A DNA stretch of 34,511 nt from a virus: the IMG/VR virus record IMGVR_UViG_3300045740_000135, positions 1-34,511 of that record. One strand, written 5' to 3'. Every line of letters begins with the position of its first letter. The first letter of the stretch is position 1. The position numbers were made by a program, and so were the translations under genes. The notes beneath the pieces were generated by a model. That model made no database searches and was not told the origin of the DNA. It was given only the letters and a program-made list of their open reading frames with translations. Positions 16,452 through 26,285 of the stretch are shown piece after piece.

Positions 16452-17102
16452 CTAATCCCAACTAAGGCAATAATCCCCGCTTTTTTCGAAGCGCAATTTG
16501 GCCCCAAGGCCGCGCAGGTAATCCACCGCGCCCGTTTCTGGCAGCCCATACTTTTGCGCGCGTCCCGGTTTTTGCTCGACAAGCACGCATGGGTGATGAC
16601 GAATCAATAATTGCTCGCCGCCGCGCAGCGCAAACAACTCATACCCTTCGCAATCGAGTTTGATGAAATCAATCGGGCCATCAAAATGCAAACTGTCCAA
16701 TGTGCGCATGGGAATATCCCCGTCACCATCCACCCAACTATCGCCGCTACTCGTGTGCGATGTGTGAATTTTTACGCTCCCTGGCTTTTCGCCAAGCGCA
16801 CACCCTATCAACTGATAAGGAAGCGCAACGTTTTTACGAAAACACAAGCGGTGCAACGCCACAGGCTCAAACGCCCACAACTCTTTGAAGCGCTCTACCA
16901 AGTGCATCGACCACAGCCCGCAATGCGCGCCCACATCTATCGCGCCGCGAAACTGTTTTACGTGTTTCATTGCCGCTTCAAATTTCGAGTACTGATAAGT
17001 CAATTTGCCATCGACGCGATGATTGACCTTACGCATCCATTCGATCAAATGCGTCTCGTGTGCCGGAAGGAACACGCCGCTGAACTCCTGTATTTGTTCC
17101 AT
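16452..17102 (-). CDS. FkbM-family methyltransferase
   Basis: The 216-aa protein has a Rossmann-type SAM-dependent methyltransferase core: motif I IDVGAHCGLWS at residues 55-65, the acidic end of strand beta2 in FEP (78-80), and the FkbM signature DFIKLDCEGYE around 140-151. FkbM enzymes methylate hydroxyl groups, commonly on sugars. It is the last gene of the sugar-modification block, starting eight bases after the GT9-like gene. A cap on transferred sugars is the likely role (inference). Confidence 0.85.
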   Translation of the reverse strand: MEQIQEFSGVFLPAHETHLIEWMRKVNHRVDGKLTYQYSKFEAAMKHVKQFRGAIDVGAHCGLWSMHLVERFKELWAFEPVALHRLCFRKNVALPYQLIGCALGEKPGSVKIHTSHTSSGDSWVDGDGDIPMRTLDSLHFDGPIDFIKLDCEGYELFALRGGEQLLIRHHPCVLVEQKPGRAQKYGLPETGAVDYLRGLGAKLRFEKSGDYCLSWD

Positions 17103-17110
17103 GATGATCC

Positions 17111-17914
17111 TTACGTTTTCGCGTTCAACAACGCCATGAGTTGTACAAGCACGTTCCCCACTGTGATTTCAGACATGGCGCGCGCGCAATGATCACACGG
17201 CATGCGCGACCCGCACGCCACGCCTCCAGTGAAAATGTTATGGTGCATTTCGTATCCGGTTATGTCTGGTGAAATATATCCGCCGAAGATCACCACCGCT
17301 GGAATATTAAATGCTGCCGCGAGGTGATGCAGCGCCCCTTCCGTTAACACCGCAGCACGCGCCATCGACATTAGCGCCGCAGCCTGCCGAATACCCGCTG
17401 TTTGAATGAACTCTGCACGCGGCAATCTTCTCACATGCGAGGGGCCAATCTGCGTAACCTTAACGCCTGCTTTTTGCGCCTCGTGCGCAAACGCTATCCA
17501 TCGTAACCATCCCCAGTCTTTGTTCGGCGACGCATTGATTTTAATGTTAGGCTCAATGATGATGCGGTTCGGGTATTTCCTCGCCCATCGTTTTTCTTGC
17601 TCAGTCAGGTGCACCTCACCGGGGCGAATGTCCCATTGCTTCCATGTCCATCTCTCAGACGTTTTCCCTGCGATGTAAGGGCGCGCACCGGGGCCGTTCA
17701 CCAATACTTGGATATTAGATTGTGATCCGGGCCGCGCCATTATCGGGTTGTGCTCCCACAACTCGTTCCACCGCGCACGTCCGTTTATGTCGTGCACTTG
17801 CACGCGTTGTTGCCGCCTGTTCCACAGCACGCGCGCCTGCGCCGTAGCCATTATTTCGTCGCCGTATCCGATGTTAGCCTCCGGCGCGTTTCCAATGTTG
17901 CACCCATTCCCCAC
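17111..17914 (-). CDS. GT9-like (heptosyltransferase-type) glycosyltransferase
   Basis: The protein carries NIGYGDEIMATAQARVL near its N-terminus, RIIIEPNIKINASPNKDWGW in the middle and AAVLTEGALHHLAAAFNIP followed by VVIFGG near the end. This resembles the C-terminal nucleotide-sugar binding half of ADP-heptose:LPS heptosyltransferases and a related phage family. A cysteine pair-rich tail (CGSRMPCDHC) is typical of the phage variants. The start is uncertain: GTG 17914 gives 267 aa and a 41-base overlap with the methyltransferase gene, ATG 17851 would cut into the conserved GYGDEIM, and a rare ATC at 17872 sits just after GGAGGCTAAC. Confidence 0.78.
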   Translation of the reverse strand: MGNGCNIGNAPEANIGYGDEIMATAQARVLWNRRQQRVQVHDINGRARWNELWEHNPIMARPGSQSNIQVLVNGPGARPYIAGKTSERWTWKQWDIRPGEVHLTEQEKRWARKYPNRIIIEPNIKINASPNKDWGWLRWIAFAHEAQKAGVKVTQIGPSHVRRLPRAEFIQTAGIRQAAALMSMARAAVLTEGALHHLAAAFNIPAVVIFGGYISPDITGYEMHHNIFTGGVACGSRMPCDHCARAMSEITVGNVLVQLMALLNAKT

Positions 17915-18455
17915 GCGGCCCGCGTATCAATTCGATCAACGAAAATCCCAACGCCTCCATCTCGTGATTGACATTCGTTATTTTGAAACCTCGCGTCTCA
18001 GGGTGCTTAGGACGAATGTTGCCCGTTGAGTTTATTGGCAGTCTGATCACCACGTAATTTGTGCGTTGAGCGTATTCGCGCAAAATGCTTTTCGCGTTAT
18101 GCAGCTTATGCAAAATTGCCAGCATCAACACCATGTCATACTGCGGCAACACCCAATCCGGCGCTGGCGTTTCCAATTCACCATCGAAAAACACGCAAGG
18201 GGCCGCAACATTCTCGCGCGCAAACTTGATGAACGCAGCGTTATAGTCCTGCCCATGCACAAGCGTTGCGCCAGCGTTAGCGAACGCCTGCGCTATGAGT
18301 CCCTCGGCACAACCCAAATCCAGAACCGTTCGCCCGTTGGCGTAAGCTAACGCTGGCTCAAGTCCTTTGAGTTGTTCGCCAAGCGTGCGATCACCTAACT
18401 GCACGCCGGGAATGGCGAACCAGCCTTTAGGCCACTTGGATTTTTTATTTGCCAC
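17874..18455 (-). CDS. Class I SAM-dependent methyltransferase
   Basis: I chose GTG 18455, five bases after the upstream stop, giving about 193 aa. An ATG at 18518 would overlap the upstream gene by 58 bases. Motif I is TVLDLGCAEGLIAQAF (about residues 43-58), followed by an acidic loop with GQDYNAAFIKFAREN and the later YDMVLMLAILHKLHN segment. The first 30 residues (KWPKGWFAIPGVQLGDRTLGEQ) are also seen in phage-encoded relatives. The substrate is not predictable; company of glycosyltransferases suggests a sugar or a virion protein. Confidence 0.75.
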   Translation of the reverse strand: MANKKSKWPKGWFAIPGVQLGDRTLGEQLKGLEPALAYANGRTVLDLGCAEGLIAQAFANAGATLVHGQDYNAAFIKFARENVAAPCVFFDGELETPAPDWVLPQYDMVLMLAILHKLHNAKSILREYAQRTNYVVIRLPINSTGNIRPKHPETRGFKITNVNHEMEALGFSLIELIRGPRGEWVQHWKRAGG

Positions 18456-18460
18456 GCCGA

Positions 18461-19132
18461 TTAGGTATATAAATTTTGTGGAACAGGACGGCACGCCAGC
18501 GCGAATTCGTGCCGCCATTCTTTCGCGCGATCACTTCGGTAATAGTCGGGGAAGCACGGCGTGCCTAACGTGTAATGGTAAACGTGCATGCCGGAGCGGT
18601 CTGGATACTCACCCACCAAATAATTCCATTCCATCGGCAACGCCTCGATGTCCTCATCCTTGCACCACTCGAATCGGTGCAGATGCTTTCCGGAACTGCA
18701 ATCGATATATTCCGGCGTGAGTTTTTTGCACGCTTCGTGCTCGCAGTTAAACAGCATAAGGCTCGACCAATTCTTGCGCGGATAATCCGAATTGTTGTTG
18801 TTCAAATATTTACGCGTCGCCTTTGTGGCGTAGGAGTGCTGCACGCACGAAACGGCCCCTTTGGGAACGTGCTCCCACAATTGCGCGATGTCTGTCGTGC
18901 AGATCATATCGCCATCGGCGAAGATCGCATGGCCCGTATAGCGCATCAGATAAGGAACCAAAAACCGCGAGTAAGTAAACGTGTTGCTACCGTCGCGTTG
19001 CTGTATCCCGAAAAGCCCCGGTGTCAACGGCGTAAACGAAACAGGCACGCTAGACCGGCGCAACACTGAGTCGCAAAATGTGTGATACGCGCTCGCCTCG
19101 CGCGGATCATACCCAACAAACAGATTAATCAC
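18461..19132 (-). CDS. GT-A fold glycosyltransferase (GT8-like)
   Basis: The 223-aa protein opens with INLFVGYDPREASAYHTF, has SNTFTYSRFLVPYLM and the metal-binding DxD as DGD at residues 73-75 (AIFADGDMICTTDIAQLW), then YPRKNWSSLMLFNC and a C-terminal WNYLVGEYP with a late YHYTLGTPCF. This is a consistent family of phage and bacterial GT8-like transferases that use nucleotide-activated sugars. GTG 19132 is preceded by a strong GGGAGGTGG ribosome binding site and overlaps the stop of the small ORF upstream. Confidence 0.83.
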   Translation of the reverse strand: MINLFVGYDPREASAYHTFCDSVLRRSSVPVSFTPLTPGLFGIQQRDGSNTFTYSRFLVPYLMRYTGHAIFADGDMICTTDIAQLWEHVPKGAVSCVQHSYATKATRKYLNNNNSDYPRKNWSSLMLFNCEHEACKKLTPEYIDCSSGKHLHRFEWCKDEDIEALPMEWNYLVGEYPDRSGMHVYHYTLGTPCFPDYYRSDRAKEWRHEFALACRPVPQNLYT

Positions 19133-19244
19133 GCCTCCACCTCCCTGTCAGTAAATACCTGATTGTCACAAACCAAAATACAGGGTGCCACAAAAGCACC
19201 ACAATCTCAGTTCCGCGATACCGCATATAGCAAGGCAACTTCAT
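19125..19244 (-). CDS. 39-aa single-pass membrane ORF
   Basis: A short ORF starts at ATG 19244, which overlaps the stop of the capsule-type gene as ATGA, and ends with TAA at 19127-19125, overlapping the GTG start of the next gene. It therefore has the same coupling as the real genes around it. The product begins MKLPCYMRYRG, has a hydrophobic core (residues 13-32, EIVVLLWHPVFWFVTIRYLL), and ends in basic GRWRRD. I infer a small membrane protein, possibly an anchor or simply a coupling leader. No family is recognised. Confidence 0.55.
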   Translation of the reverse strand: MKLPCYMRYRGTEIVVLLWHPVFWFVTIRYLLTGRWRRD

Positions 19245-20005
19245 AGCTGCAAATCCCGCCAGCACCGACCGCTGTTAAACTCATCCACCGACCATTGATT
19301 GGCTACGAGTCCCGCCGCCCACTCCTCGCGATTATCTGGTCGCCACGGGCGTTCAATCTGCGACAGATCATCCAGCGCCAACGGCGAAGCGGCACAAGTG
19401 CCGGTTACGAATACGGGCACCCCGCTGATTAGCGCCTCGTTCGCCGCGCTACTCATGTGCGTTACAAGGGCGTGCGCATCTTTTAAGTCGTCGCGCAACG
19501 TGGCAGCGAGTTTCGCCTTATCGCGATGCCAGCGGCGAATCAACAACGGGCGATCCGTGTGCTTTTTTATCGCGGCCACCGTGTTGTCCAGCCAGTTTGC
19601 GCCGTATCCGCAAAGCCGCATAAACTCCCTGCTCTGCTCGCACACCACCACATGCCTGCCGGAGGAAACCCAAGGGCGCACCACCACGCCCAACGTATCC
19701 AGCTTTTTGTAGTTAGGTGGGCGAATAGTGGAAATTTGAAAGGCGTTTTTGGTGACCCGAAACTGTGCTTGCCGCCCTCGGTCAAAATACGCGTTGTCCG
19801 CATAATACCAATCGCGCCCCTCTGCCACTGCGCGTTGCCACAGCGCAAGCGTGTCATCCACCACGCCGTAAAACATCGCTGGCCCCGCGTTGAGACCATG
19901 GCGCGAATCCATGATCATGCCGCCAGCGCCGCGCGCGAACGCCTCGCAAATCATGTATGCCTTTGCCTTACCCGGTGATGGGTAACAAGTAACCGTTACC
20001 GTCAT
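19241..20005 (-). CDS. Capsule-type glycosyltransferase-like protein (copy 1)
   Basis: I chose ATG 20005, which overlaps the methyltransferase stop as ATGA and gives about 254 aa; a longer frame exists to 20068. The protein has an N-terminal Rossmann-like half and a C-terminal half with DAHALVTHMSSAANEALISGVP and VFVTGTCAASPLALDD, then PWRPDNREEWAAGLVANQWS. That pattern fits the GT-B-like fold of capsular polysaccharide (KpsC/KpsS-type) enzymes and a family found in phages. It resembles the gene at 20484-21326. Expected to transfer a sugar from an activated donor; acceptor unknown. Confidence 0.7.
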   Translation of the reverse strand: MTVTVTCYPSPGKAKAYMICEAFARGAGGMIMDSRHGLNAGPAMFYGVVDDTLALWQRAVAEGRDWYYADNAYFDRGRQAQFRVTKNAFQISTIRPPNYKKLDTLGVVVRPWVSSGRHVVVCEQSREFMRLCGYGANWLDNTVAAIKKHTDRPLLIRRWHRDKAKLAATLRDDLKDAHALVTHMSSAANEALISGVPVFVTGTCAASPLALDDLSQIERPWRPDNREEWAAGLVANQWSVDEFNSGRCWRDLQL

Positions 20006-20487
20006 TTTGTCTCGCGCACCTCTACGTGAACATCGGTCAAAAACTCCCCAAGTAAACGCTGCCACCAATCAAGCGGTCGCAACGTGACGTGCGCATTCAC
20101 GCCAGAGGGCAAGGTCTTTTTAGCCGCGCGGCAGCACACGGTAAAAAATGCCCATCGCGGTCGCAACGAATTCATCGCTTCAAGTGCAAGCCCCAACTCC
20201 TCGGTCGGAATGTGTTCCAAGACATCGGTGCATATCACGCCATCAACCTTCCCTGGCGCATCGTTAAAGCCTGCTGGCGGATCATAAAGAAAAACTTTTG
20301 CGCCATTCAACGCAGCGGCGAGTGATGGATTTAAATACTGCAACCCGTCACCGCAACCGTAATCGAGTACGCTTTTCGTTTCGAATCGTTGCGTCAACTC
20401 GTTGATTGCCGGGATGTGCTCAAGCAGCACGGTGCCGGGGAATTTTCCCGCCGCGTGCATTTGTCGATTGTCCTCAAAGTATCTCAT
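20002..20487 (-). CDS. Short class I SAM-dependent methyltransferase
   Basis: The 161-aa protein has motif I VLDYGCGDGLQYL (residues 40-52), an acidic residue after strand two in LYDPP, and VICTDVLEHIP (84-94), a typical methyltransferase motif. It is shorter than most class I enzymes (about 200-250 aa) and lacks a recognisable C-terminal substrate lid. Its start overlaps the preceding gene by ATGA and its stop overlaps the next, so it is translated as part of the block. Confidence 0.8.
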   Translation of the reverse strand: MRYFEDNRQMHAAGKFPGTVLLEHIPAINELTQRFETKSVLDYGCGDGLQYLNPSLAAALNGAKVFLYDPPAGFNDAPGKVDGVICTDVLEHIPTEELGLALEAMNSLRPRWAFFTVCCRAAKKTLPSGVNAHVTLRPLDWWQRLLGEFLTDVHVEVRETK

Positions 20488-21326
20488 GCCAGCCCCTCAA
20501 ACATTACCTTGAACGGCAACCCGCTCGCGATTTCCTCGCACGTCCACTGCCCCCACGCCATTCGCTCTAGCGCGATGCTTCGAGTAATAGTCGGATCGCA
20601 TAGTCGCTCGTGACGGCCTGCGATGACCTCCTCAAACGTCAACGCGGCGCTCTTGCAAATCCAATACGGCGCGCAGCACACGACCGGCACACCTTGCACC
20701 AGCGCGTGAACGCCCACGCTCGACGACCAAATCACCACAACGTTAGCGCCCTCCAAGTCCTCTTGCAGCGAACGCTTCGGTGCATTATTGCCGGGGTGCA
20801 TTCGAATGCGTATGGGCACGCTCGTGCCTGCGCGTAATTGCATCGCCGCGCGTGTAGCCCAATCAGGATGCATCATGCGCTCAGGAACGCCGAAGCTGCG
20901 ATTTGGACACAGCAAAATATATCCGTCCTGACTAAAACGCCATGGCTTGACCTCGATGTTCAACTGCGCGAATCGTGAAGGTTGATTTTCCGGCAGCACG
21001 ATAACGTCATCGGAGTTGTGGTAACCGAATGAGATTGCATAGTAACTATCCGCCTTCGGCCCGTCTGGATATACATCGAATTTGGGCGACACCCCATTTT
21101 TTCCTATGTATCCATTTTCAGCCACGATCACCATTCCGCCAGCGCTCTCAACCCGTTTGGCCAGTGTGTGATGTTCGGCGTAGCGATTCCAAATCAGCAA
21201 CAGCGTATTCGCATCGGGCGCTGGCGGCTGCCCGCGATGCACCTTGTGCCCTGCTGCGCGCAACCCGCTTTCAAACACGTCACGCCGATAATAAGGCTGC
21301 TCGCGCAATAATGAATACGCTTTCAT
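20484..21326 (-). CDS. Capsule-type glycosyltransferase-like protein (copy 2)
   Basis: I chose ATG 21326 (MKAYSLLREQPYYRRDVFE), overlapping the stop of the MptE-like gene as ATGA, giving about 280 aa. The N-terminal half carries LLLIWNRYAEHH and MVIVAENGYIGK. The C-terminal half has ILLCPNRSFGVPERMMHPDW, VPIRIRMHPGNN and VVIWSSSVGVHALVQGVPVV, ending MAWGQWTCEEIASG. The last part aligns by eye with NQWSVDEFNSG of the gene at 19241-20005, so the two look paralogous. GT-B-like capsule biosynthesis family; donor and acceptor unknown. Confidence 0.74.
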   Translation of the reverse strand: MKAYSLLREQPYYRRDVFESGLRAAGHKVHRGQPPAPDANTLLLIWNRYAEHHTLAKRVESAGGMVIVAENGYIGKNGVSPKFDVYPDGPKADSYYAISFGYHNSDDVIVLPENQPSRFAQLNIEVKPWRFSQDGYILLCPNRSFGVPERMMHPDWATRAAMQLRAGTSVPIRIRMHPGNNAPKRSLQEDLEGANVVVIWSSSVGVHALVQGVPVVCCAPYWICKSAALTFEEVIAGRHERLCDPTITRSIALERMAWGQWTCEEIASGLPFKVMFEGLA

Positions 21327-21988
21327 GCGCGCACCGCTTCGAGCAACGGCACGCGCGGAAAACAATCCAATGCGGTGTCGATGGTTGCATTAAACACCTC
21401 AACTCCCATTCCCCTGAGTATCGGCGCGGCCCGTTTAAAATACATCAGCATTTGCGAGTATGGTGCGCTTGTCTTATCGGGATGATCACCGAAAAAATGT
21501 TTGCGTCCGTCTTTGCCCTGCTTGGCGTCGTAGCCCACCAAAACTATGCGTCGCGCGCCAGCAAGCACCGCTATATTCACCGCTTGGTAGCCGCTGTTTT
21601 GTCCAGTGCAAATCGCTTCCGGGTCAGTTGATATTCCCTCGTGTCCGGCGTTTTGCAGCATGTGCACCTCTGGATTGTCGATCAAATTCCCCGTATTATA
21701 AATCGTGCAACGCTCCGCTCGATGCGCGCAAAACGCCTCCTTGTGTTTATGCCATTCCCACCATTTCGTGTCAGCAAAATAAATTACATCTGCCGATGGC
21801 AGTATGCGGTAGGCATCATTTACGGCTATGACCCGCGCCGTTTTTTCGGTAGCGCAAGCGTTGACCTGTACGGCTTGCTCAGCGCTGAAACTTGGGCCGC
21901 TTGCTGCGCAGATAACAACGGCCCCGTCCCATGATCGCTCGACGCGGCTGAATCGGTTTGTTGGCCAGCCGACTCTTCTGGCAAAGAC
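21323..21988 (-). CDS. MptE/DUF115-like Rossmann protein, reached by candidate -1 frameshift
   Basis: This frame encodes about 221 residues after the slippery site: SWDGAVVICAASGPSFSAEQ (a nucleotide-binding-like loop), ARVIAVNDAYRILPSADVIY, FADTKWWEWH, GQNSGYQAVNIAVLAGARRI, VLVGYDAKQGKDGRKHFFGDHP and a C-terminal FPRVPLLEA. These match phage members of the 6-hydroxymethylpterin pyrophosphokinase-like/DUF115 group, some of which act in surface glycan pathways. The frame is open from 22060, but no ATG, GTG or TTG occurs in it until TTG 21685, which would delete the conserved N-terminal half. The frame is in -1 phase to the upstream small gene at A_AAA_AAG. Confidence 0.72.
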   Translation of the reverse strand, partial: VFARRVGWPTNRFSRVERSWDGAVVICAASGPSFSAEQAVQVNACATEKTARVIAVNDAYRILPSADVIYFADTKWWEWHKHKEAFCAHRAERCTIYNTGNLIDNPEVHMLQNAGHEGISTDPEAICTGQNSGYQAVNIAVLAGARRIVLVGYDAKQGKDGRKHFFGDHPDKTSAPYSQMLMYFKRAAPILRGMGVEVFNATIDTALDCFPRVPLLEAVRA

Positions 21989-22185
21989 TTTTTTACTTCT
22001 GACGGCCCCGCCATCGGCATCTCCTGCGGTTGAACCGGGGGCGCTATCAACTCTGCAATTCTATGCGCGATGTAGTGCTGCGCGTGTTCGCGCGAACACC
22101 AAAACACCTGCCGAGGGCGCAGCGCACCGTCCATCGTTTCCGCGCGCACCAATGCGCGCATTTGCACTCGTTCATTTATATCCAT
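21826..22185 (-). CDS. Small protein heading the glycan block; frameshift donor
   Basis: The zero-frame product is 119 aa, starting at ATG after AAAAGGA. The first 55 residues look like real coding sequence (MDINERVQMRALVRAETMDG, RQVFWCSREHAQHYIAHRIA), a basic alpha-rich small phage protein often found next to head genes. After residue 66 the zero frame turns into low-complexity Ser/Ala/Gln sequence overlapping the MptE-like frame. I infer two products: a 119-aa protein and, after a -1 shift at 21994-21988, a 287-aa fusion. The function of the N-terminal part is not known. Confidence 0.65.
   Translation of the reverse strand: MDINERVQMRALVRAETMDGALRPRQVFWCSREHAQHYIAHRIAELIAPPVQPQEMPMAGPSEVKKSLPEESAGQQTDSAASSDHGTGPLLSAQQAAQVSALSKPYRSTLALPKKRRGS
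21988..21994 (-). other. Slippery heptamer A_AAA_AAG, candidate -1 frameshift site
   Basis: In the small gene the codons are GTA-AAA-AAG, so the heptamer A-AAA-AAG is in the phase required for tandem -1 slippage. Re-pairing on AAA-AAA is perfect for both Lys tRNAs, and the next codon (GTC) continues into the MptE-like frame. A 6-bp GC-rich stem (CGGCTG with CAGCCG, 21966-21971 and 21945-21950, 15-base loop) begins 16 bases downstream, further than usual. A sequencing error in the six-A run would look the same. Confidence 0.6.
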
Positions 22186-22308: not shown

Positions 22309-23577
22309 TTATCCGGCGTGGCTCACATCACCGTAAACCAATGCCGCTGCACGGTAAACCGTCAGCGCAAGCCGTTCCTCAGCGAGGATCGCGACCATGT
22401 TACGAATAAAATGATCGTTCACGTTTTCGCTGATTCGCACCGTGGCATCCTCGCGATCCCAAATCTGCGCGGCCAAATTGAACGCGCCGGTCAGGAACTT
22501 GCCCTGCGTCATGCTTTGCGTGGCAACCACTGGCTTCGCCCAAATGCGAGCATCCACCATGTTCTGCGGATCGGCGAACAGATAGCGCCCCGTCGTATCC
22601 TTCGCCAGGATAATGTTCATCCAGTCGGTAGGATGCAGCACGATTGCGCTCGCCTCGTAATTCGACAACGAGACTTGCGTGAGTGCTTTCAGCAAGCAAT
22701 CGATAGCTGTCAAGTTGGTAGACCCCGCATTAAACGCCGTGGCCTGATTCACCAAACCGTTAAGCGTGCCCGCTGCGCCGGTGCCGTTCAGCAGCTCATC
22801 TTCCTCCTCAAGTTTCAGCCCGTAAATAAGGCGCGAGCTGATGTGCCCTTGGAGCATCGATGCATCCGCCAGCACTTGCCGCGACGCTGGAATCCAATGC
22901 GCCACGGTAATGACGGGAGAATTGGCCAGCGTAAACGTCATGCTCGCTTCCGCCTTCAATTGCCCTTCCGTCTCTGCCGGGGAACTACCGCTGCCTTGCG
23001 GTGCGGCCGCGCTGGTGAACGATGCCTCGCTTGCGAACTCGATCAAGTTGCTGGTCGTGGTCGCCTGCGGAATAAGATCACGGATGGTTAGCCGCTGCTG
23101 CGCGGGCACGATGATGCCGCCCACGCGTTGCGAATCCACCAGCACGTTTTCCGAAATGCTCTGCGTAGTGTTCAACACGGCTGCCTTGTGGAAGCTGCCC
23201 ACCGTGACCGGATGCATCGACCGCGCACCCATGCCCATTGCCTGCGTCGCCTTGTATTCTTCCGACTCGGCGACGATTTGCGCGATGGATTTGCGCGATT
23301 GATCGTCCTTTTGCGGCGCATTGCGCGCGGCAAGTTTCTGCTCGACTTCGGTCAAACGATCAGTTGCCGCTTTGAGCGCGAGTTGCAGTTTGTTGCCTTC
23401 CTCGCCCATCTGCTTCAACTTTTCGTTTTGCTCGCCGTGAATCGTGCCGTATTCCTTAGCAGTTTTCATGGCTTCCGATGCCGTCTCAACCGCCTTCTCG
23501 CAATGCTCTTTGAGCGTTGCCATGGCGTCCTTCACGGCCTGCTGTAGCGCCTTCATTTCACTTGCATTGGTTTCCAT
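22309..23577 (-). CDS. Major capsid protein, HK97 fold
   Basis: I chose ATG 23577, which has AAGGA six to seven bases upstream; a longer open frame reaches 23634 into the protease gene. The protein is about 422 aa. Residues 1-100 are a Glu/Lys/Ala-rich helical coiled-coil region that corresponds to the delta (scaffold-like) domain. The mature part contains LTIRDLIPQATTTSNLIEF, a TFTLANSPVITVAHWIPASRQVLADA stretch, RLIYGLKLEEEDELLNGTGAAGTLNGL and a C-terminal NMVAILAEERLALTVYR, all typical of HK97 gp5-like proteins. The delta domain would be removed by the adjacent protease; the cleavage site is not identified. Confidence 0.93.
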   Translation of the reverse strand: METNASEMKALQQAVKDAMATLKEHCEKAVETASEAMKTAKEYGTIHGEQNEKLKQMGEEGNKLQLALKAATDRLTEVEQKLAARNAPQKDDQSRKSIAQIVAESEEYKATQAMGMGARSMHPVTVGSFHKAAVLNTTQSISENVLVDSQRVGGIIVPAQQRLTIRDLIPQATTTSNLIEFASEASFTSAAAPQGSGSSPAETEGQLKAEASMTFTLANSPVITVAHWIPASRQVLADASMLQGHISSRLIYGLKLEEEDELLNGTGAAGTLNGLVNQATAFNAGSTNLTAIDCLLKALTQVSLSNYEASAIVLHPTDWMNIILAKDTTGRYLFADPQNMVDARIWAKPVVATQSMTQGKFLTGAFNLAAQIWDREDATVRISENVNDHFIRNMVAILAEERLALTVYRAAALVYGDVSHAG

Positions 23578-23609
23578 CGTATTTCCTTTGTAAGAGGTAA
23601 AAGTTAAAA

Positions 23610-24254
23610 CTACTTGCTGGTGATTGCCATGCACAAGCTGAGCAAGTCCGCGTCCACCGTCACGTCGTTGTCTGCCTCACCATCAGCGTCTCGCTGACCG
23701 GGAAGGTCTCTGTAGGATTTGGCCAAAATTTTGGCCTGTTCCTTGCTGAAGCCTCCTACCTCTCGCAGGAATGCTTCGTACTCGCGTACATTAGTGATCT
23801 GTTCCTGTTGCTTCACTCCGGCGACTTGTGCCAAGGGGTTCATCCCGAATGTCACAAGCGAAATTTCCCACAGCTTAAGCGCTTTCAGCATGCGTACGCC
23901 GCTGCTTGCAATCGTGTAGTCGAGCACGTCATAACCGATGCTCATGCCGCGCACTGTGTTTGCTTTCATGTGCGCCTGCGCGCGCCTCGCGTTCGGGTCT
24001 TCTAGCACGAGACGGCCCTTGAACTTAAGGCCAATATCATCCTGCGTGACCTCCGCTGCCGCAATCGGGGTGTCGGTGCGATGCTGCCACAGCACGACGA
24101 CTTGCCCTTCTTTGTTCTTTTCGATTTCCTTGAACGCACCGCGCTCGATTACATCACCGCCGTGGTCTACGTTTCCGAATATCGCAGCGTAACCGTCAAA
24201 GGTGCCGCTTTCGTCTAGCGCTTTTATCTCAAGCGGAAAGTTTCTCTGTTCCAT
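23610..24254 (-). CDS. Prohead maturation protease, HK97 family (peptidase U35/S78)
   Basis: ATG 24254 is preceded by AAAAGG at a suitable distance; a GTG nine bases earlier is too close to that site. The 214-aa protein begins with FDGYAAIFGNVDHGGDVIERGAF (19-41) and carries the catalytic pair His58 in LWQHRTD and Ser105 in VRGMSIGY, with KALKLWEISLVTFGMNPLAQV later. The C-terminal 70 residues form a helical FSKEQAKILAKSY region and an acidic tail. It removes the capsid delta domain during head maturation. It lies directly upstream of the capsid gene, in the standard order. Confidence 0.93.
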   Translation of the reverse strand: MEQRNFPLEIKALDESGTFDGYAAIFGNVDHGGDVIERGAFKEIEKNKEGQVVVLWQHRTDTPIAAAEVTQDDIGLKFKGRLVLEDPNARRAQAHMKANTVRGMSIGYDVLDYTIASSGVRMLKALKLWEISLVTFGMNPLAQVAGVKQQEQITNVREYEAFLREVGGFSKEQAKILAKSYRDLPGQRDADGEADNDVTVDADLLSLCMAITSK

Positions 24255-24269
24255 TGTAATCACCTTTTC

Positions 24270-26285
24270 TCAAGACGTTAAAAGAATGACGCGCAGATGC
24301 TGCGCTTTTCGCAGCGCAAGTAACTGTTGCGGCGACTGTCTCACATCGCCAATTGCGTCGAAGCCGTCCGTTCCGTGTTCCTTCGCTACAATTTTACCGC
24401 TGATGGTTTCCGGCTCCGGCTGCTGCACCTCACGCACCGGTTTCCTTCGCCATGTTCCTTCTATTCTAACGTGCGCCGCCGTGCCGCTAATGATTGCAGC
24501 AAGCACACCGTTCGCGACTGCGTTTGCAGGCGTCGCGTGAATCGTTTCAGTCCCTGCAATCGATGCCGTGACGCCGTTAGCTGTAGCGTTTGCAGGCGTT
24601 GCTACAATGTGCGCTAGCGAGTTGACGGTTGCGTAAACGCCATCTGCTGTTGCATTAGCAGTCGACGCAGATATGATGCGTTCAACCGCAGACGTTACGC
24701 CGTCCGCGATTGCTGCGGCAACTGACGCTGCAATAACTTGAGCTATCGCTGCCGTTGTGCCGTCTGCTGTAGCGTTGCCCGGTGCGCATGCTATGCGTAC
24801 ATGCACTGCGCAGGTTACGCCGTCAGCCGTCGCGTCACCTACTGTTGCAGGCACTATTCGAACAATAGACGCAAGCACGCCGTCTGCCGTCGCTGTGCTC
24901 GGCGTTGTTGGTATGCTTTCTACAATCGACGCCGTGATGCCGTTTGCGGCTGCGTCGCCCGGCGTTGCGTCTATTGCAAAAGAGTTGTCGATTGTCGCCG
25001 TGACGCCATCTGCGACCGCGTTGCCCGGCGATGCAGGCGTATAGCCCTCTGCGTCGATTGTCGCCGTGACGCCATCCGCGACGGCATTGGCAACCGCCGC
25101 GTAGATGTGCGCCTCTGCATCGAGCGTCGCTGTGATACCGTTCGCCGTAGCGTTCGCAGGCGTTGCAGCGATCAATCGCGTTACTGACGCGAGTGCACCA
25201 TCTGCGTCTGCATTCGCAGGCGTTGCTATAAGCGTGAGCGTTAGTGTCGCAAGCGCGCCCTCAGCCACCGCGTTCGCCGGTGTAGCAGATATTGTTTTTA
25301 CAATCGCTGCAAGCGTGCCATCTGCTGTCGCATTCGCAGGAGTCGAGCCGATACTTTCGACAATCGCCGCAAGTGCGCCATCTGCCACGGCGTTTGCGGG
25401 TGTGGCGCTAATCAACGACGGGAGCGTTGCTCTGATGCCATCTGCTACTGCGTCAGCAGGCCCGGCGTAAATGTGCGTTTCTGCATTGATGCTCGCACCG
25501 ACACCGTTTGCCGTTGCGTTGCCCGGTGTCGCTGCTATCGTTTCCAGCACTGACGCGAGCACGCCGTCGGCGCTCGCGTTTGCAGGCGTCGCTGAAACGG
25601 TCTTGATTAGCGTCGCAAGCGTGCCGTCTGCCGCTGCGTTCGCAGGCGTGCATGATACGGTAACATCGACGCTGACAACAGCCGTTACGCCGTCTGCTGC
25701 TGCGTTACCCGGCGTTGCTGGTATCGTCGAAATTAGCGACGCTGATGTGCCGTCTGCTGTCGCGTTTCCGGGCGTTGCTGCAATCGTTTTTATTAAAGCG
25801 GCAAGTACGCCATCTGCGACCGCATTTCCGGGCGTTGCTGCAATAGTCTTTATTACAGCGGCAAGTATCCCATCTGCAACTGCGTTGCCCGGAGTAGCTG
25901 AAATCGTTTTTACAACTGCCGCGAGCACACCGTCTGCAAAAGAATTTGCGGGCGTGCACAATACTGTGACATTAATCCCTGCTGAAACGCCGTTTGCTAC
26001 TGCATTTCCCGGCGTTGCGCTGATGACGGTTGCACCGCTCGAAAGCGCGGCAAAATTTCTGCTTACATCGACATTTGAACTTAACGGAAATCCGCGCTTA
26101 TCTTGGGGCGCAAATATCAGCGGCTCGCGCTGCTCTATATGTTGTTCGAATAGCGCTTTATTCCTCGGCGTATCTGTGTCATTGATAGGCCGACTGTGCT
26201 GCGTGAGCGTTACGCTTACGTCATTACTAAATGGACGTGCACGCGTGACAACGCCTGCCGGTAACGGTTGCCACGCCCAAGTCAC
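24270..26285 (-). CDS. 671-aa protein of about 25 tandem 20-22-residue repeats
   Basis: GTG 26285 follows AAGGA by 11 bases; a stop lies just upstream in frame. Residues 1-85 are non-repetitive, with WAWQPLPAGVVTRARPFSN and an acidic/basic stretch. Residues about 86-610 consist of roughly 25 repeats of consensus ATPGNAVADGVLA(A/S)(I/V), most 20 residues long and several 22. The last 55 residues are basic and unrelated. The regular hydrophobic-NA-DG pattern suggests a beta-solenoid or an elongated stalk. Lying between the small head genes and the protease, it may be an outer head or fibre-like component. No family is recognised. Confidence 0.8.
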   Translation of the reverse strand: MTWAWQPLPAGVVTRARPFSNDVSVTLTQHSRPINDTDTPRNKALFEQHIEQREPLIFAPQDKRGFPLSSNVDVSRNFAALSSGATVISATPGNAVANGVSAGINVTVLCTPANSFADGVLAAVVKTISATPGNAVADGILAAVIKTIAATPGNAVADGVLAALIKTIAATPGNATADGTSASLISTIPATPGNAAADGVTAVVSVDVTVSCTPANAAADGTLATLIKTVSATPANASADGVLASVLETIAATPGNATANGVGASINAETHIYAGPADAVADGIRATLPSLISATPANAVADGALAAIVESIGSTPANATADGTLAAIVKTISATPANAVAEGALATLTLTLIATPANADADGALASVTRLIAATPANATANGITATLDAEAHIYAAVANAVADGVTATIDAEGYTPASPGNAVADGVTATIDNSFAIDATPGDAAANGITASIVESIPTTPSTATADGVLASIVRIVPATVGDATADGVTCAVHVRIACAPGNATADGTTAAIAQVIAASVAAAIADGVTSAVERIISASTANATADGVYATVNSLAHIVATPANATANGVTASIAGTETIHATPANAVANGVLAAIISGTAAHVRIEGTWRRKPVREVQQPEPETISGKIVAKEHGTDGFDAIGDVRQSPQQLLALRKAQHLRVILLTS
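24450..26040 (-). repeat. Tandem 60-66-bp coding repeats
   Basis: About 25 in-frame units of 60 bp, with some of 66 bp, encode the TPGNA-ADG repeats. Nucleotide copies are diverged, mostly at third positions and in the last third of each unit, while the NA-ADG core is kept. That argues for selection on the protein rather than recent expansion. Confidence 0.8.

Follow-up and report, generated by a model that had tools for sequence, protein, structure and literature searches.

In phage lambda, a conserved -1 slip joins two overlapping ORFs of the morphogenesis region to make the tail assembly chaperone G/GT, and this frameshift sits between the major tail protein and the tape measure. Other phage proteins gain a C-terminal domain when a minority of ribosomes change frame, including T7/T3 gene 10, the head protein of Lactobacillus phage A2, and proteins of the Listeria phages A118, A500, and PSA; the shift is -1 in these phages but +1 in PSA (PMC5009743). 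In those cases a major coat or tail protein is extended, often by an Ig-like domain. Similarly, IS3-family elements make a small upstream protein alone (OrfA), and a -1 slip during its synthesis gives a version that carries a catalytic domain (OrfAB) (PMC5009743).

We describe a related arrangement in a 34,511-nucleotide viral sequence, hereafter the window (the whole stretch of DNA that was analysed; positions 1 to 34,511 of IMG/VR record IMGVR_UViG_3300045740_000135). All features given below in window coordinates are on the minus strand. An HK97-type major capsid gene (22309-23634; PF05065, E = 4e-46; phrog_10, 2.6e-65) lies directly upstream of a small gene that encodes 119 aa (21826-22185, stop included). 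An initial annotation called the latter a head gene, a label that holds by position directly behind the capsid gene and has no other basis. A second frame, which encodes an MptE/DUF115-like domain, is open from 22060 to 21323 (stop to stop) and overlaps the small gene. A frame scan agrees with the earlier statement that no ATG, GTG, or TTG occurs in this frame above its sole standard start, the TTG at 21683-21685. Within the overlap, the small gene carries the slippery heptamer A_AAA_AAG in exact -1 phase (21994-21988), its 0-frame codons being GTA AAA AAG. The -1 frame continues for 221 codons past the slip (21323-21988, stop included), and the predicted fusion (21323-22185) would thus have the 66 + 221 = 287 aa originally calculated.

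From comparison with relatives, we propose that a conserved -1 programmed ribosomal frameshift very probably joins the small post-capsid protein to the MptE/DUF115-like domain. The window alone makes a weaker argument. The sequence AAAAAAG occurs six times in it against 6.1 expected, and the chance of an in-phase copy inside the overlap, as we estimate it from that density, is about 0.005. The GC-rich downstream stem of the initial annotation is rejected, its stability being no better than that of shuffled sequence (60-nt window, z = +0.41). Because the heptamer is unremarkable within the window and the stem no better than shuffled, the case rests on the relatives. Across the group, downstream folding gives a mean z of -0.86, a modest signal beside the -1.39 to +0.11 obtained at other offsets. 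Some known -1 frameshift sites have no stimulatory structure.

The predicted system shares with the T7/T3, A2, and Listeria proteins a minority slip by which a head- or tail-region protein acquires a C-terminal domain, but in the window the base is a small post-capsid protein and the extension an enzyme-like, Rossmann-type domain. It shares with lambda G/GT a conserved -1 slip between overlapping morphogenesis ORFs, but its site lies between capsid and connector genes, adjoining the PF05065 capsid gene rather than the interval between major tail protein and tape measure, and the partner is MptE-like. Like IS3 OrfA/OrfAB, it would yield a small upstream protein both alone and extended, but it involves no transposase and belongs to a phage head module.

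The domain belongs to the same family as phrog_4603, labelled “alpha-2,3-sialyltransferase” (E = 6.3e-37, profile positions 2-173 of 178), which includes Pseudomonas phage D3 orf7, PAJU2 ORF010, and P1 pmgO. These members are annotated as separate genes, with no frameshift noted in the records examined. The match to Pfam MptE-like (PF01973) has an E-value of 7e-4 and, at 19.8 bits, falls below the gathering cut-off of 34.6. An AlphaFold2 model of the domain from the heptamer lysines onward is confidently predicted (mean pLDDT 96.6, pTM 0.93) as an alternating alpha/beta rather than an Ig-like fold, and the stretch just past the heptamer is modelled as strands (residues 4-6 and 15-18). Viral models named MptE-like align to it with TM scores of 0.5-0.7. 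The best match among solved structures is 8sd5, an archaeal pterin pyrophosphokinase (the MptE/DUF115 6-hydroxymethylpterin diphosphokinase of Methanocaldococcus jannaschii; Foldseek probability 1.00, TM 0.45, E = 2.5e-3), and chains of the GT42 sialyltransferase CstII (1ro7) give a weak profile match (E = 0.26-0.41); both are remote, and an enzymatic activity is not assignable from them. Because of these remote fold and profile matches together with the neighbouring glycan genes, the domain is probably a glycosyltransferase. That neighbouring cassette, recognized by Pfam matches, follows the fusion at 16452-21365 and comprises a 293-aa gene, class I methyltransferases, GT8, GT9, and DUF6716 glycosyltransferase-like genes (the GT9 and DUF6716 matches fall below their curated cut-offs), and an FkbM methyltransferase. 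The 293-aa gene has no family match and is not recognizably related to the neighbours in PAJU2 or Psp6.

The closest relatives, here the window clade, were recovered by a scan with a window-clade alignment. Nine other loci have an A-run shift site at the corresponding position, and seven of these keep the heptamer A_AAA_AAG itself (L098, L100 (=L194), L101, L185, L191, L205, and L206); the variants are A_AAA_AAA in L189 and A_AAA_C in L188. The sites sit 29 to 33 codons before a conserved GPS motif of the domain. Since a stop in the domain frame directly precedes the heptamer of L098, entry into that frame must occur there at or after the heptamer. Conservation of the -1-frame protein begins at the heptamer itself (KKVxxRRxGWPxDRF, with eight of the first 24 residues invariant in five aligned loci), in agreement with the original reading that the shifted frame runs into a conserved domain. 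Ordinary-start relatives, which the initial annotation regarded as evidence against a shift, do exist: L183, L187, and L192 carry an ATG (M-SILRRRxGWP). It falls exactly at the slip position and behind a different gene, so these loci mark the boundary of the domain and do not refute the shift. With conservation and ordinary ATGs both starting at the slip site, we take that site as the N-terminal boundary of the domain.

No convincing slip site was found at the expected place in L099 (=L186), L162, or L172. L099/L186 (3034-3684 in L099) is a close relative with the same two-frame layout and has GAGGCGAAGCGG where the slippery site is expected. In L202 and L204, a small gene of the post-capsid type ends before the GPS motif and the same domain follows with an ordinary start; these two loci are the natural unfused counterpart of the fusion. 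A separate candidate in the window, the loss of one base (G) close to the out-of-frame ATG at 21932-21930, was discarded because relatives lack this ATG (L098, GCCTGGGACGG).

The same architecture appears in cultured phages. Pseudomonas phage D3 has the order capsid (orf6), orf6.5, orf7. An in-phase C_CCA_AAG lies within orf6.5, and immediately past it, in the -1 frame and still inside orf6.5, the conserved domain of orf7 begins, about 90 nt ahead of the annotated orf7 start. On this sequence evidence, orf6.5 and orf7 look like a single gene read with a frameshift. The layout of PMG1 and other D3-like phages agrees with this. Phage Psp6 shares the gene order, its in-phase site being T_TTT_TTG; in Tetraselmis viridis virus S20 the domain frame contains stops, and C_CCT_TTG follows them directly. 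PAJU2, P1 (pmgO), and Caulobacter and Brevundimonas phages carry the domain with an ordinary start of its own. As annotated, the start of D3 orf7 falls inside its conserved domain (L002 1634-2352, NC_002484). Stand-alone copies in PAJU2 (L007 1795-2364) and Klebsiella phage vB_KvM-Eowyn (LR881104) are annotated “structural protein”; a basis for this label was looked for and not found.

The D3 branch comprises D3 and 35 further non-redundant loci, and an in-phase C_CC tetramer is present in all 36, ten of which were found after the pattern had been predicted. With a search range of 20 codons, C_CC stands in phase 13-16 codons before the GPS motif in 26 of 26 loci and in the other two phases in 8/26 and 7/26. 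CCT serves as the shift codon in 19 of 27 loci, although of the proline codons it is the one used least in the domain (22/158) and CCG the one used most. Many of these sites are only C_CCN, with no full heptamer. The prospective set came from a scan run after the C_CC pattern was noted, and each of its ten loci has less than 85% identity to any earlier locus. All ten have an in-phase C_CC at -14 and a -1 ORF, nine lack a start codon, and out-of-phase C_CC occurs in five and two of the ten.

Treated as a single oddity in the initial annotation, the feature proves to be a widespread family. Two alignment-based scans of viral contigs returned 160 loci, which together with the window and the named phages reduce to 98 non-redundant representatives at 85% identity. 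Thirty-three loci have no start codon before the GPS motif; an ORF of at least 60 aa spans the motif in the -1 relation in 31 of them and in the +1 relation in 13 of the 33. Five more loci have a GTG somewhere upstream and the same architecture, for a total of 36. A full X_XXY_YYZ (Y = A or T) lies in phase in 12/31 and in the other two phases in 1/31 and 3/31. Related sequences are not independent, so these survey figures are counts and not probabilities. Where a small gene overlaps the domain, the relation is -1 in 39 of 39 loci and never in-frame or +1, as counted with an HMM built from the members themselves. A search for the small gene and the domain fused in frame found no case. On sequence comparison, the frame relation, the lack of an ordinary start, the in-phase slip site, and a domain boundary at that site recur across relatives, and independent relatives keep the architecture and slip site in place as the initial -1 frameshift reading implies.

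A tree of the 98 domains requires at least seven changes between frameshift and ordinary forms, compared with 29 in shuffles, and its well-supported branches force only two; the trait is clustered, yet on that tree it has changed more than once. One locus with a 550-codon open domain frame (L314) was dropped as a GC-rich chance frame with a capsid gene in another frame. Single-protein searches of viral contigs gave no matches, either with the full open frame of the window or with the S20 domain as query.

In the proposed mechanism, most ribosomes would complete the 119-aa post-capsid protein as the major product, and some would step back by a single base on the pair of lysine codons in A_AAA_AAG and read on into the MptE/DUF115-like domain to yield the 287-aa fusion as a minor product. 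Both A_AAA_AAG and C_CCA_AAG are reported to be highly shift-prone in Escherichia coli, with Z_ZZN as the minimal -1 motif (PMC5009743). Ribosomal slippage is our inference, as are the efficiency and the purpose of the slip. The most likely purpose, which we would still rate somewhat short of even, is that a glycosyltransferase-like enzyme is anchored, as a small and fixed share, on a head-region protein; in concert with the downstream glycan genes, it would then act on the virion or where the virion is assembled. We suggest more tentatively that this widespread frameshift family of tailed phages builds a head-associated glycosyltransferase, in which a fixed minority of a capsid-neighbour protein bears an MptE/GT42-like enzyme that would modify a virion or host glycan, and in which most of one branch slips at a proline C_CC(U/C) tetramer and not at a full heptamer.

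A real slip may instead only keep the enzyme at low dosage, its small N-terminal part having no targeting role, and we give this reading a similarly tentative standing. Because stand-alone forms with an ordinary start exist behind unrelated genes, the domain can work without the small protein. On the other hand, the partner recurs: the small gene is directly behind a PF05065 capsid gene in 10/10 loci tested, which suggests that the partner matters. The 119-aa protein of the window has no family match of its own and no phage match by tblastn. Small genes of several relatives have matches, ranging from weak to strong, to phrog_7993, phrog_2616, or DUF7210, and these families are given no function in the libraries searched.

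If the slip occurred in transcription, RNA polymerase would add or drop an A within an A6-A8 run and the edited mRNA would yield the fusion by ordinary translation. Several window-clade sites are indeed A7 or A8 runs, but the window run is only A6, the D3 branch has the same architecture at C_CCN without a long homopolymer, and what the sites have in common is a codon-phase-specific Z_ZZN. We therefore regard this explanation as improbable; it fits the A-runs and not the C_CCN branch, which leaves ribosomal slippage as the simplest common explanation. Separate production of the domain by internal initiation, from a weak or non-standard start (TTG 21685, a GTG/TTG at -22 in D3, or a non-AUG codon), is less probable still. 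Public records do annotate such starts (D3 orf7, PMG1_0008, S20 TVGG_00049), and true stand-alone ATG copies exist (PAJU2, P1 pmgO, Caulobacter phages), but nearly all members of the overlapping group lack ATG, GTG, and TTG before the GPS motif, the D3 GTG/TTG is missing in the close relatives L052 and L053 that keep C_CCA_AAG, and several loci have a domain frame that is open only from the slip codon onward. A start at TTG 21685 would leave out the N-terminal ~103 of the 223 modelled residues, the GPS motif among them; with about half of a confidently predicted fold lost, we judge it unused. Least probable is a sequencing or assembly error or a decayed gene, in which the loss or gain of a single base disrupts an ordinary gene: single-base errors do occur and the window is a single metagenomic record, but both frames stay open, the domain is conserved, and the same out-of-frame layout and site are shared by relatives in dozens of independent assemblies and in the isolates D3, PMG1, Psp6, and S20, by which we consider chance and sequencing error excluded.

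Frameshift-extended phage proteins are known, and the ribosomal frameshift that we propose into an MptE-like domain after the capsid gene is apparently an undescribed instance. A published report of a capsid-adjacent -1 frameshift to an MptE-like domain was not found in the open-access literature, nor was one in open-access work on capsid glycosylation by phage glycosyltransferases. In the parts of GeneTack (PMC3711429) reached by term search, the sole phage case is the tail chaperone, and the passages of PRFect (PMC10885494) under the terms searched do not mention this family. With this family, the phage head module would gain a conserved recoding event, beyond the familiar case of the tail chaperone. 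The family also points to misannotation in much-used genomes such as that of D3, where the orf7 start lies inside the domain. It raises the testable idea that phages might achieve sub-stoichiometric attachment of an enzyme to a head protein in this way. Finally, sites that consist solely of C_CC(U/C) bear on the minimal requirements for -1 slippage in bacteria.

The window has further features of its own. Its portal protein (PF04860; 31128-33932) contains an intein with splicing, Hint, and LAGLIDADG endonuclease domains. A protein with a Concanavalin A-like lectin domain (PF13385; 27165-27956) is encoded in the small-gene block of the portal-protease interval. Between a block of small genes and the prohead protease lies a gene for a 671-aa protein (24270-26285) with no Pfam match that consists mostly of repeats like ATPGNAVADGVLAAI.
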